DNA of 64,000 nucleotides from assembly GCA_002951815.1 (NCBI GenBank), contig CP019454.1:2480001-2544000 (forward strand), written 5' to 3'. A program made the position numbers and the translations under genes. The notes beneath the pieces were generated by a model. It saw only the letters and a list, made by a program, of their open reading frames with translations. It did not search any database and had not been told where the DNA came from. The stretch is from Sulfobacillus thermotolerans (lineage in GTDB: Bacteria > Bacillota > Sulfobacillia > Sulfobacillales > Sulfobacillaceae). Shown here piece by piece: positions 2,499-42,833 of this stretch (its first letter is position 1; the number at the start of each line of letters is the position of its first letter).

Positions 2499-4526
2499 CT
2501 ATTCCTGGCGTAGGGCGTCGATGGGATTCAAAGACGCGGCGTGGGAGGCAGGAATCGCACCGGCAATGACAGCGACCCCACCGCCAAACGCAAGACCCAT
2601 GATGATGAGCCATCCGGGTAATGCAAAAATCGTGTCGCCAGCCGCGGCATGTGAGACAAATCCGTTGATGAGAAGGCCCACGCCAGATCCAATGGCGAGG
2701 CCGGCGACAGCCCCCATCAGACCAATGGCTAAGGCTTCGAGTAAAAATAAGCGGGAAATGTCCCGGCGCCTGGCCCCCACGGCGCGCAAGACCCCAATTT
2801 CACGGCGTCGCTCCAGAACCGACATACTCATGACGACCCCGATCATAAGGCCGGCCACCACCAAGGCAATGCCACCCACCGCGCCTAGGCCCAGCTCGAT
2901 GAGACGAAAGCTCTTGTTAATCGATTGCAGAGCGTCTGATAGAGTGGTCGTGCTATAGCCCATTTTCGTGATGCGTGAAGACAGGCCATTGACCGCCGAA
3001 AGGTTATGCGCTAACACGGTAGCGCCTGGGTAGGTGACATGAGCCGTTGAGGAAAATTGCCTCATCCACCCTAGTGCGGTGGGATACGGGACATAGCCCA
3101 AACCCGTGTTAACCAAACCGGTAACAGTCACGGAAATAGTGCCGACGGGATGCGCTGGTCCGCTAAGACCCCCACCCGAAAATAGCCCGCCACTGACCGT
3201 TTCCAGATGTAATTGCACCCTATGTCCGATCAGGCGCTGGATGTCGGGATGTTTGCCACCTAGCAGCGCTTTGGCAACGCTAACGGGTAAGAGAATATCA
3301 GCGGGACGCGAACTCACGCGACCGGCTGAGACTTTGGGTAAAATCCCGTTGACGGACCATAACGGTGTGGGTGGCAAGGGCAGCAGAGCAGTGGTCGTCG
3401 CGCGACTTCGCCACGTAACTCCGCTCAAAAAGGTCATATTCGCATAGGCTCCGCGGGAACCGGGGAGATGGGCGAAGGTGAGCAATGTCCGAGACGTAAT
3501 GGGCTGGGAGTGTCCCACAACGGCTTGGGGCCCAAATAGGCCGTTGTCCGTGGTTTGGCTTTGGGGAGAGACGTTAATGGCTGTCAAGGGCCCTAATGAT
3601 ACGACGGAACCGACTACGTGGGATTTCAATCCACTGCCCAATCCCATGAGCAGAATCATGGCCGCCACACCAATGGCGATACCGAGACCCGTCAAAATGC
3701 CCCGAGATAATCGGCGGGCGAGAGAATGCCATGCCATCCGCCACAGAGCGGGCCATTTCACATGCCTCAAGGGCGTGTCAAGCGGTGTCACGGCAGTCGG
3801 GGCCATTGGGGCGGTTTCCTCCTGTTTAAGGTCGCCGTGCAATACCCCGTCGCGAATTCTTAGGACCCTGTCGGCGCGGGCGGCAAATTCCTCGTTATGA
3901 GTGACAATGACGACACTGTGGCCATCTTCATGGGCTAACGCAATCAACAACCGAATAATATCTTCGCCACTCGCTGAATCTAGGTTGCCCGTGGGCTCAT
4001 CCGCGAGGATTAAAGGGGGATTGGCGGCTAAGGCACGGGCTATCGCCACGCGCTGAGCTTGGCCGCCCGACAATTGACCGGGGTAATGGTTGGCACGGGT
4101 TTCAAGGCCCACGCGCTTCAGGAGTTCCAAAGCCCGCGCACGGCGGGCTGTCGTAGGGACGCCAGCCAGCAACAAGGGCAACTCGACATTTTCCAATGCG
4201 GTCATACTGGCAATTAAGTGAAAGGCTTGAAACACGAAGCCTACGGTTTCTCGGCGATATTGGGCTAATTGATCAGAGCTCCACGTACTAATATCTTGGC
4301 CAAACACGTCCACATGGCCCTCGGATGGACGGTCCATGCCCCCTAAAATATGCAGCAACGTAGATTTCCCGCCGCCCGATGGCCCTAAAATCACGGTTAC
4401 GGTGCCCGGGGCGAGTTCAAACGAGACATCAAGAAGTGCCACCACGTCTTCAGTGCCGCGTTGATAATGTTTGCTCACATGGTGCAAGGCCAAGACCGGA
4501 AGAGTTGCCATGGGCTCAGATGGCAT
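2499..4526 (-). CDS. MacB-like ABC transporter, fused ATPase and FtsX-type permease
   Basis: One polypeptide carries both ABC modules. Residues about 10-230 are the ATPase, with Walker A GPSGGGKST, signature LSGGQAQRVAIARAL and Walker B LILADEPTGNLDS. Residues about 265-675 are a MacB/FtsX permease: one membrane segment (LTGLGIAIGVAAMILLMGLG), a roughly 220-residue extracytoplasmic domain, then three C-terminal membrane segments. MacB-type transporters act by mechanotransmission, exporting peptides or releasing lipoproteins. ATPase and permease fused in one chain is the MacB arrangement, although Firmicutes more often split them. I chose the ATG at 4526, about ten bases after AAGGA; a GTG at 4535 and an ATG at 4511 are alternatives. 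It overlaps the preceding gene by 11 bases, so translation is probably coupled. The substrate cannot be read from sequence. Confidence 0.92.
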   Translation of the reverse strand: MPSEPMATLPVLALHHVSKHYQRGTEDVVALLDVSFELAPGTVTVILGPSGGGKSTLLHILGGMDRPSEGHVDVFGQDISTWSSDQLAQYRRETVGFVFQAFHLIASMTALENVELPLLLAGVPTTARRARALELLKRVGLETRANHYPGQLSGGQAQRVAIARALAANPPLILADEPTGNLDSASGEDIIRLLIALAHEDGHSVVIVTHNEEFAARADRVLRIRDGVLHGDLKQEETAPMAPTAVTPLDTPLRHVKWPALWRMAWHSLARRLSRGILTGLGIAIGVAAMILLMGLGSGLKSHVVGSVVSLGPLTAINVSPQSQTTDNGLFGPQAVVGHSQPITSRTLLTFAHLPGSRGAYANMTFLSGVTWRSRATTTALLPLPPTPLWSVNGILPKVSAGRVSSRPADILLPVSVAKALLGGKHPDIQRLIGHRVQLHLETVSGGLFSGGGLSGPAHPVGTISVTVTGLVNTGLGYVPYPTALGWMRQFSSTAHVTYPGATVLAHNLSAVNGLSSRITKMGYSTTTLSDALQSINKSFRLIELGLGAVGGIALVVAGLMIGVVMSMSVLERRREIGVLRAVGARRRDISRLFLLEALAIGLMGAVAGLAIGSGVGLLINGFVSHAAAGDTIFALPGWLIIMGLAFGGGVAVIAGAIPASHAASLNPIDALRQE

Positions 4527-38427: not shown

Positions 38428-39378
38428 TTACCATAACGGCGGTGTGACCGGAATAGAACTGGTATCGGGGTAGTTCTGGCCTTCTTGGGCATTTGTAATA
38501 TTGGGACCGTTGGGGGTTATTGTGGTCATGGCCGCTAAGGCAGCCCATTTGTCTTGCCGTGGCACATCAATCATATATCGCGCTTGAATGCCGGCGTTCA
38601 TAACACCCCCCGCACTAAACCCATTTTGACTCCAGGCAATCCCTACCCGGAGGTCTCCCGGATGACCAGCAGTTTGCTCGACAATAACCTCCGTCGTAGG
38701 GGTAACAATTTGCCATGACGCATGAAGGATCGTGTTAAAAGCCGGAAAGGCTTCCGGAATGTACGTTGGCGGACTCGAATGCAGGGGCATCGCGTTTTCA
38801 ATTACCGTCGGCGTTTGAATCCATAACAGCGGTAATCCCGTTTCCTGCCACGTGCGTGAAGTTATGGGGACGCCAATCTGGGCCGACAATGTAGCAAAAG
38901 TTTGCCATGTCCATGCCCCTAAAAATACCGTCGGTTGCATCGCGGCAGAGTAAGTCGTAACGCCCGACCCATTCGTCGTCGGGGGCAGTCCTTGATCTAC
39001 GGTCGGAAGCGGATTTACCCCTGGGGTATAATGGTAATTAACGAGCATGCTATATGGTTTGACGCCGGCGTCGGATGATGGAGCTGGCGTTGTGGTCGTG
39101 ACAATATGCCATGAACTGGCCGCGGCATATTTTCCGACCACAAGAAGCCCGGCGGCGATCACCGCAATATGGACCCACCGCCATTTCCGCTGTGGCGATA
39201 TGGTAGGGCGTTGCAATTCTTCAAGAAATTCGAGAGGTTCTAGAGGATGGGCCGAAGCATATGAAGGCAATAACTCTGGGGGGGCTGTGGGGGGAGTGGA
39301 CGACGTCGGCGACAAGGGTGTGAGGTCTGCTGGTTTATAGACGCTAGCCGTATGAGAATGGATGTGTTTGCGGGGCAT
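38428..39378 (-). CDS. Membrane-anchored extracytoplasmic protein, unknown function
   Basis: 316 residues. Residues 1-60 are P/S/T-rich and hydrophilic, one membrane helix follows (WVHIAVIAAGLLVVGKYAAA, about 67-86), and the remaining 230 residues should lie outside, as a type II membrane protein. The outer part has threonine- and proline-rich stretches and no known motif. GAGGTGAT precedes the ATG at six bases; an in-frame GTG at 39387 is part of that ribosome binding site. Its leader holds interleaved inverted repeats (39405-39511). It converges with the helicase gene. Confidence 0.75.
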   Translation of the reverse strand: MPRKHIHSHTASVYKPADLTPLSPTSSTPPTAPPELLPSYASAHPLEPLEFLEELQRPTISPQRKWRWVHIAVIAAGLLVVGKYAAASSWHIVTTTTPAPSSDAGVKPYSMLVNYHYTPGVNPLPTVDQGLPPTTNGSGVTTYSAAMQPTVFLGAWTWQTFATLSAQIGVPITSRTWQETGLPLLWIQTPTVIENAMPLHSSPPTYIPEAFPAFNTILHASWQIVTPTTEVIVEQTAGHPGDLRVGIAWSQNGFSAGGVMNAGIQARYMIDVPRQDKWAALAAMTTITPNGPNITNAQEGQNYPDTSSIPVTPPLW

Positions 39379-39404: not shown

Positions 39405-39511
39405 AGACGGATTTTCCACGCCAGAACTGGACGTAGTGTACTGATGACGGTCCCCTCCGCCGAGGCTCCCTAGGTCGGTGGGAAATCCGTCTGCACAGTC
39501 ATCGTACACTA
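39405..39511 (-). promoter_or_regulatory. Interleaved inverted repeats in a 5' leader (pseudoknot topology)
   Basis: Arm A (39405-39419) is complementary to A' (39478-39492), 14 of 15 bases. Arm B (39434-39448) is complementary to B' (39498-39511), 14 bases with one bulge. The order A-B-A'-B' cannot form two nested stems, but gives a pseudoknot or two exclusive folds. A small CCTC-CGCC-GAGG stem lies between. On the minus strand the last arm ends 17 bases before the ribosome binding site of the membrane-anchored protein. I recognise no known riboswitch. Confidence 0.55.
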
Positions 39512-39913
39512 GCATAACGCCGCTAGGGAACGTCACGTTACGGATTGTGCTGCCTTGAGACTAGAGTTTAGTATTTTATTTACGCTACAAATGCGAGCTA
39601 CACATATGTTTGAATTCCTCATAGGTAGGCTACAAAACCTGCTAGGTCAGGAAATCTCACCATCACAAAGTTCGATTCATAATTCGGAACCCAGAATTTA
39701 GCAGCCGCCTGACTAGGCCTTGGATCACCATGGACTGGATTAATGTAGTTCCTTGGTCATTAGAACATGGTTTTAGTTCTGTTCCCGATCCACTGTTTTT
39801 CAACATTCAAAGTCGGCTTGTTGGCTACCGCCTATGTATCCCAAACATTGCGCCACACGAATCAGCGCTAAGGGGGCTTTCACGGCCAATGGGGAGATAT
39901 GTTCCTGCAACAC
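39512..39913. other. AT-richer intergenic stretch
   Basis: About 400 bases with no supported gene. A frame in line with the downstream reductase runs back to 39730, but has no ribosome binding site or protein signature. I see no repeat or mobile-element end here. Confidence 0.4.
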
Positions 39914-41006: not shown

Positions 41007-41120
41007 AACACATATCTTCACGAATATTGTCGAAAATTAGCGAGTTAACGCTTATACCTTCGTAATGTGAACCCCTGAATGCGGTACTTCGTGATTTTAA
41101 TTGGTTAGGAGGCCTTGTTC

Positions 41121-42833
41121 GTGGCAAAAATTCGTACACTCGCTCTTACCGCTGCGGGGCTGGGAATGACGTTAGCTGGGTGCGGGACTCAAGCCCCTAG
41201 TAGTGCGGCTGTGGCTACTAAAGCCCCCACCACAGTCGTCATGGCTCTGCCAGTGCAAACATCCCCCGATTGGTTCTTTCCGGTGCTGGCATCCACGGCG
41301 TTTATTGATGTCAATAGCCAAATGAACTTTCTGATGTACAAACCTTTGGTGTACATCAGCAAAACGGATGGGGTTGACTATCAGAAATCACTCGCCCAAT
41401 CGATTACGTATAACGCGAATGGGACGCGGTATGTTATTACGCTAAGCCATAAGTATAAGTGGTCCAACGGACAACCGGTGACGAGCCAAGACGTGGTGTT
41501 CACGTGGAACATTATGGATGCAGCCAGTCAAAATAACGCGGTCTGGTCTTATGGGGGCGCGGGAGGGGGCGGTGTCCCGACCGATTTTCAAAGCGTCACC
41601 GCTGACGGCCCAGATAAAGTCATTGTCACGTTGGTTCATCCTGAAAACCAGACCTGGTTTATTCATAACGGCTTGGCCCAAATTATCCCGGTCCCCGCGA
41701 GTGTGTGGGACAAATATCCCACGAATATGACGGCTGAGCTGAATTACATTAAGAGCATTGCGAATATACCGACAGCAAAGCCTTATAGTGTCGTGGATGG
41801 TCCGTTTAAATTTTCGCAAATGGCCCCCAACGATTACTGGACCTTTGTGCCCAATCCGGCGTATGGGGGACATCGCGCCACGATTAAGAAACTGGAATTT
41901 CAGTATGAAACATCTACGTCGAACGAGTTTGCAGGCTTGAAAACTGGAATTGTGGATGTCGGATATCTTCCGCCGTCTCTGTGGAATTCGCGCAGTGCGT
42001 TGACCGGCGACCGTTTCTGGAGTGCCTATCCTTTTGGCTTTAACATGGCCCGCGTCAACCAAAGTCCCCTGGCTGAAGGCGGATTGGGTCCTGTCTTCAG
42101 TCAGCGGTATGTGCGTGCGGCCCTCGAAATGGGGATTAATCAGCAAGGCATTATCGATAGCTTCTACCATGGTCAAGGGGTTGTCGAAGATAGTCCGGTG
42201 CCTTCAGAACCCCCAACCGAGTTTTATGACCCCGCTTTGAAGAATCCTCCGTATCCCTTTAATCCAGAAGCGGGCAAAAAGCTATTGGAAGCTCATGGCT
42301 GGTCCTTGGTCAATGGCGTCATGACGAAAAATGGGGTAAAGTTGGCTTTCCCCTTAATCTATACGGCAGGCAGCAACACGGTTGCAGACATTGTGCAATT
42401 GGTGAAATCCGATTGGGCCAAAGAAGGAATTCAAGTGAGCTTAGTGCCTGAACAGTTTGATAACGTGGTCCAAACCATGCATGGCAATCCGAGTAAGTGG
42501 GACGCAGCGTTCTGGGGCGGTGGGTGGACCTATCAACCCGACTATTATCCCACGGGTGGGGAATTGTTTGCGAGCGGCGCGGCGGCCAATGCTGGCCATT
42601 ACGATTCACCAACCATGAACCGATTGATTCAAGCCTCGTATCAACCAGGGACACCCCAGCAAACAAAACAAGCCCTATTCGCCTATGAGGCTTGGGCGGC
42701 GCACGATATTCCCTACCTCTGGTTCCCATGGACGGCACAGTTCAATGAAACGGCCAATGCCGTGCAAGGGGTGCAATCCACATACAACCCGATTACCGAC
42801 CTTTACTATCCTAATTACTGGACCACCAAGTAA
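41121..42833 (+). CDS. ABC transporter solute-binding lipoprotein (SBP family 5, peptide/nickel type)
   Basis: 570 residues. The signal peptide ends with lipobox LAGCG, so the protein is anchored outside. Family 5 motifs: SITYNANGTRYVITL, YKWSNGQPVTSQDVVFTWN, YVRAALEMGINQQGI and LLEAHGW. These proteins deliver oligopeptides, nickel or sugars to DppBC/OppBC-type permeases. No permease or ATPase gene is near, so it must share components encoded elsewhere. GTG 41121 is eight bases after AGGAGG; TTG 41115 is too close. A close paralogue lies at 57010-58737. Promoter with palindrome upstream and strong terminator downstream, so monocistronic. Confidence 0.93.
   Translation: MAKIRTLALTAAGLGMTLAGCGTQAPSSAAVATKAPTTVVMALPVQTSPDWFFPVLASTAFIDVNSQMNFLMYKPLVYISKTDGVDYQKSLAQSITYNANGTRYVITLSHKYKWSNGQPVTSQDVVFTWNIMDAASQNNAVWSYGGAGGGGVPTDFQSVTADGPDKVIVTLVHPENQTWFIHNGLAQIIPVPASVWDKYPTNMTAELNYIKSIANIPTAKPYSVVDGPFKFSQMAPNDYWTFVPNPAYGGHRATIKKLEFQYETSTSNEFAGLKTGIVDVGYLPPSLWNSRSALTGDRFWSAYPFGFNMARVNQSPLAEGGLGPVFSQRYVRAALEMGINQQGIIDSFYHGQGVVEDSPVPSEPPTEFYDPALKNPPYPFNPEAGKKLLEAHGWSLVNGVMTKNGVKLAFPLIYTAGSNTVADIVQLVKSDWAKEGIQVSLVPEQFDNVVQTMHGNPSKWDAAFWGGGWTYQPDYYPTGGELFASGAAANAGHYDSPTMNRLIQASYQPGTPQQTKQALFAYEAWAAHDIPYLWFPWTAQFNETANAVQGVQSTYNPITDLYYPNYWTTK

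Follow-up and report, generated by a model that had tools for sequence, protein, structure and literature searches.

Translational riboswitches and comparable leaders sequester the ribosome binding site (RBS) by means of mutually exclusive stems, a strategy reviewed in PMC10907184. The locus described here is alike in its predicted folds: helices compete in a 5′ leader and one of them hides the Shine–Dalgarno sequence and the start codon. The present leader differs from these systems in having no Rfam class, no known ligand or regulator and no second example. The kind of mechanism is known; the leader itself belongs to no known class.

The locus was found in a 64-kb stretch of Sulfobacillus thermotolerans DNA (the window, positions 2,480,001–2,544,000 of the 3.32-Mb single-contig genome). 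Two complementary pairs of arms alternate on the minus strand in the order A-B-A′-B′, directly upstream of a gene for a 316-aa protein (Table 1). The element is intergenic, lies on the same strand as this gene and is immediately 5′ of a good Shine–Dalgarno sequence. A:A′ consists of 14 bp (8 + 6) and one bulged A, with the arms 49 nt apart; B:B′ has 14 of 15 possible pairs (a single C-A mismatch), with the arms 58 nt apart. A first-pass annotation had described two 14–15-base pairs alternating at 39405–39511, and re-examination confirmed that the interleaved repeat is real, in both its coordinates and its interleaving. The same annotation placed the last arm 17 bases before the RBS; the correct distance is 14 nt, counted from the end of B′ to the start of GAGGUG, and the ATG occupies 39378–39376. 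A minor point, read from the sequence, is that ACCGUCAU within A′ also resembles a partner of AUGACGAGGU at the RBS. The sequence and its statistics support a putative structured 5′ leader in which two long stems alternate.

Table 1. Features of the locus and its surroundings, in window coordinates. Energies are predicted.
Feature	Position	Strand	Remarks
Arm A	39511–39498	minus	TAGTGTACGATGAC; pairs with A′
Arm A′	39448–39434	minus	GTCATC-A-GTACACTA; pairs with A
Arm B	39492–39478	minus	AGACGGATTTCCCAC; pairs with B′
Arm B′	39419–39405	minus	GTGGAAAATCCGTCT; partner of B; the Shine–Dalgarno sequence and start codon are its alternative partners
Shine–Dalgarno GAGGUG	39390–39385	minus	read from the sequence
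Best candidate −10, TAAAAT	39578–39573	minus	loose scan; weak, no good −35; start at ∼39566, 5′ of every arm
Long rod closed by A:A′	39511–39434	minus	predicted OFF fold; −33.5 kcal/mol, z −3.28
Core imperfect hairpin	39484–39451	minus	common to both alternative folds (partly in the B:B′ fold), from the MFE structures of 39511–39434 and 39492–39405
RBS hairpin	39422–39374	minus	−17.3 kcal/mol, z −2.26
316-aa gene product	38428–39378	minus	a single membrane helix is likely near the N-terminus
DUF4011/AAA helicase with MTES_1575 endonuclease domain, 1353 aa	34100–38161		convergent to the 316-aa gene
Solitary type I-B CRISPR repeat	39637–39608	minus	∼95 bp upstream of the interleaved arms

Within the window this is the sole interleaved pair, even when the threshold is set at 11 bp per stem. 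None of 400 sequences of 64 kb simulated with a first-order Markov model contained interleaved stems of at least 13 bp each; at a 12-bp threshold the simulated windows give an expectation of 0.025 interleaved pairs per window, and the fall in counts with stem length extrapolates to far less than 0.01 per window for 14/14 bp. When the leader was dinucleotide-shuffled (n = 2000), the weaker stem reached 12 bp at best, and this once, compared with 14 bp observed; none of the 2000 shuffles equalled the real leader. One weaker interleaved case (12/11 bp) was present in ∼136 kb of DNA from the same genome and congeners. Thus, a sequence of this base composition would not ordinarily yield such an arrangement by chance. 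It might nevertheless have no function: a rare accident, or what is left of mobile DNA, close to an orphan gene that evolves fast. A search through very many windows is bound to meet rare events, so that one unusual site somewhere is expected; no conservation is demonstrable, and taken as a whole the 191-nt leader does not exceed its shuffles in stability (z −0.29). Set against this are the simulation and shuffling counts, the low extrapolated expectation and the placement directly before the RBS. We consider an absence of function unlikely, though a serious contender, and the element probably functional.

In the free ensemble of 39530–39355, A:A′ forms with a probability of 0.94 and closes the long rod, inside which part of B is paired; 1 of 200 shuffles was equally stable. 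Segment 39426–39370 folds into the RBS hairpin, where B′ and the bases flanking it engage the Shine–Dalgarno sequence and the start codon: GGCGUGG (39422–39416) is paired with CCAUGCC (39380–39374), and 39412–39406 with the Shine–Dalgarno region 39393–39386. The stem probability of this hairpin is 0.97 from 37 to 55 °C, a range over which the default fold does not change. When the 41 gene starts in the window are ranked by folding energy from −50 to +10, that of the 316-aa gene comes second from the lowest (−17.3; mean −11.0, sd 3.6). The competing domain closed by B:B′ (39492–39405) retains the same core hairpin, with −34.1 kcal/mol and z −2.0. The B:B′ state is ∼11 kcal/mol less stable than the default fold, which is a wide gap for a switch to bridge. 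In the free leader the AUG has a probability of 0.01 of being unpaired, compared with 0.49 when B:B′ is forced, whereas the probability that the Shine–Dalgarno sequence is unpaired is nearly equal between the states (0.34 versus 0.32), so that the AUG alone is freed. Since pairing of the Shine–Dalgarno bases is much the same in either state, the predicted effect of switching would fall mainly on the start codon. Partial MFE structures of the growing transcript traverse several other folds.

Alternative helices, one of which includes the Shine–Dalgarno sequence and the start codon, are thus predicted for this leader from one sequence, and their layout would suit a translational on/off leader that is off by default. 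Our best explanation, which we put forward tentatively, is that the element acts in cis as the leader RNA of the orphan gene for the 316-aa protein and works as a translational switch through mutually exclusive pairing. In the default state A:A′ would close the long rod and also occupy part of B. B′ would thereby be left free to fold back on the Shine–Dalgarno sequence and start codon, and for this reason translation would be low by default. If B:B′ formed instead, the RBS hairpin would be impossible and translation would be allowed. B:B′ might be triggered by a ligand or protein, by an antisense RNA or by a change in co-transcriptional folding. Because B′ is itself the strand that pairs with the RBS, the B/B′ arm would double as anti-RBS and anti-anti-RBS. 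We infer that the element is transcribed; the weak −10 candidate of Table 1 would place all arms in the transcript, and a stricter scan returned no promoter upstream of the 316-aa gene.

The two stems could instead coexist. They would then form a pseudoknotted domain (A-B-core-A′-hairpin-B′) with a possible role as an aptamer, as a ribozyme-like fold or as a non-coding RNA in its own right. Loops of 5, 29 and 14 nt permit an A-B-hairpin-A′-hairpin-B′ topology, and a simple Dirks–Pierce-style estimate, which is crude, gives ∼−45 kcal/mol for the knotted domain and −49 kcal/mol with its flanks. By the same crude estimate, however, the pseudoknot lies ∼8 kcal/mol above the nested optimum of A:A′ plus RBS hairpin (−57.2 kcal/mol); moreover, a 5-nt linker is short for spanning a 15-bp helix and no Rfam ribozyme or riboswitch matches. 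We judge coexisting stems improbable. The first-pass annotation had proposed either a pseudoknot or mutually exclusive stems, and it is the exclusive stems that fit better, on account of this energy difference (∼−57 versus ∼−49 kcal/mol), while the pseudoknot is disfavoured.

HDV-like self-cleaving ribozymes have the helix order P1-P2-hairpin-P1′-hairpin-P2′, and their P1, of ∼7 bp, begins at the cleavage site. The interleaved element has the same helix order but its A:A′ helix (14 bp with the bulge, in segments of 8 and 6 bp) extends 5′ of the sole candidate cleavage G. Together with the lack of an Rfam match this led us to reject an HDV-like ribozyme. A type III toxin–antitoxin RNA was likewise rejected, as there are no tandem pseudoknot repeats.

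No match to the Rfam 15 covariance models was obtained at the gathering threshold across the whole window, and nothing relevant appeared at the site itself when the search was relaxed to E = 10, which bears out the first-pass statement that no known riboswitch class is recognizable. Searches of the genus and class with the leader DNA returned just CRISPR repeats and isolated, chance-like 25-nt matches in two genomes (G010 and G022); plasmids and phages gave no match. A covariance model built from the single sequence with the A helix, run against 34 family genomes, recovered the window itself alone (all others E = 0.14 or worse). The 316-aa protein has no relatives in the family, 398 genomes of the phylum, GTDB contigs, IMG/VR, phages or plasmids, nor does it match Pfam, PADLOC, PHROGs or NCBIfam; its structure, predicted without an alignment, has a mean pLDDT of 35. 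Gene and leader thus occur, in the collections searched, in one Sulfobacillus genome alone. No collection searched contained a homologous leader in which covariation or conservation of the A and B pairs could be assessed.

The gene and its leader belong to a ∼6-kb block (∼33,913 to ∼39,975), which one congener (G005) lacks at the syntenic place. The genes flanking the block on both sides are adjacent there, with ∼320 bp between them, so the block was either inserted here or lost in that congener. The closest relative of the DUF4011 helicase encoded in the block is in Sulfobacillus sp. The helicase matches PADLOC PDC-S37, and NCBIfam ProA and Hhe below cut-off; this helicase-nuclease resembles the anti-phage proteins PDC-S37, ProA and Hhe, yet is shorter.

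The position of the repeats within a block missing from the congener's syntenic place is also relevant to an explanation at the level of DNA, in which AGACGGATTTYCCAC and TAGTGTAC(T)GATGAC would be protein-binding words, or the whole would be a site for recombination or replication, left where an acquired block ends. Each word does occur twice, in opposite orientations, and further inverted repeats overlap. Genome-wide, however, the B word (≤ 1 mismatch) has 2 further one-mismatch sites versus 2 control matches; no integrase or resolvase was recognized in the large ORF and the orphan gene, the parts of the block that were scanned; and the bulge in A:A′ is natural in RNA but odd for paired protein sites. 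Like the pseudoknot, a DNA-level role has a low probability in our assessment.

The 39608–39637 repeat upstream of the arms has a 26-nt core that agrees with the repeats of the genome's own arrays at all but one base. It is the single copy in the window. The arrays lie well away from it, at contig positions 2.14, 2.15 and 2.35 Mb, and two of them have the genes of the type I-B system (cas6, cas7, cas5, cas3, cas4, cas1 and cas2) beside them. One could imagine a CRISPR-derived regulatory RNA, in which a transcript from this repeat is cut by Cas6 and the downstream part forms the stems. The repeat is on the same strand, close to the arms and near-identical to those of a genome that possesses cas6, but there is one repeat only, and the sequence that follows it gave no convincing seed-plus-body match to local promoters. 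In addition, solitary repeats elsewhere in the genus sit beside unrelated sequence and look like array relics, and transcription from the best candidate promoter would not include the repeat. We therefore regard such an RNA as very improbable. The simplest view is that the solitary repeat is a putative array relic, because congeners (G001 and G003) also have solitary repeats in other contexts, next to unrelated sequence, and one such copy follows leader-like sequence. It is probably unrelated to the interleaved stems.

In two congeners, solitary repeat copies were seen at 3086–3113 (L058) and 2359–2387 (L059); one of the two is preceded by CRISPR-leader-like sequence and the other is at most ∼300 bp from an extracellular solute-binding protein gene. 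In the window, 41115–42833 is one of ∼19 paralogous genes for family 5 extracellular solute-binding proteins in the genome; congeners have a similar number.

In CreTA, two repeat-like units flank a guide that matches a neighbouring promoter. The locus shares with CreTA-type regulators a nearby CRISPR-like repeat on the same strand; a CreTA was rejected, as the window has a single repeat and no guide that convincingly matches a promoter close by. In phages and plasmids, solitary repeat units can serve as RNA anti-CRISPRs (PMC10651486). The repeat at 39608–39637 resembles these in being one intergenic, truly solitary repeat that matches the CRISPR subtype of the host. It differs in its chromosomal location, with no evidence for a prophage, and in being separate from the interleaved stems.

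If the translational switch is real, it would be an RNA switch invisible to comparative surveys, because it has a single known occurrence, and orphan genes of acidophile genomes could bear strong private RNA regulation. Going further, the leader might define a new structured-leader class in Sulfobacillus, a sensor or autoregulatory switch in which two interleaved 14-bp helices switch start-codon exposure in an acquired gene for a membrane protein; we think this quite improbable. At present the locus is a well-supported structural oddity with a putative function, and the leader offers a bench target with two testable alternative folds. Elsewhere in the window, at 1051–1148, two strong inverted repeats next to each other (one of 19 nt, 89%; one of 21 nt, perfect) were observed right after the end of an ORF.
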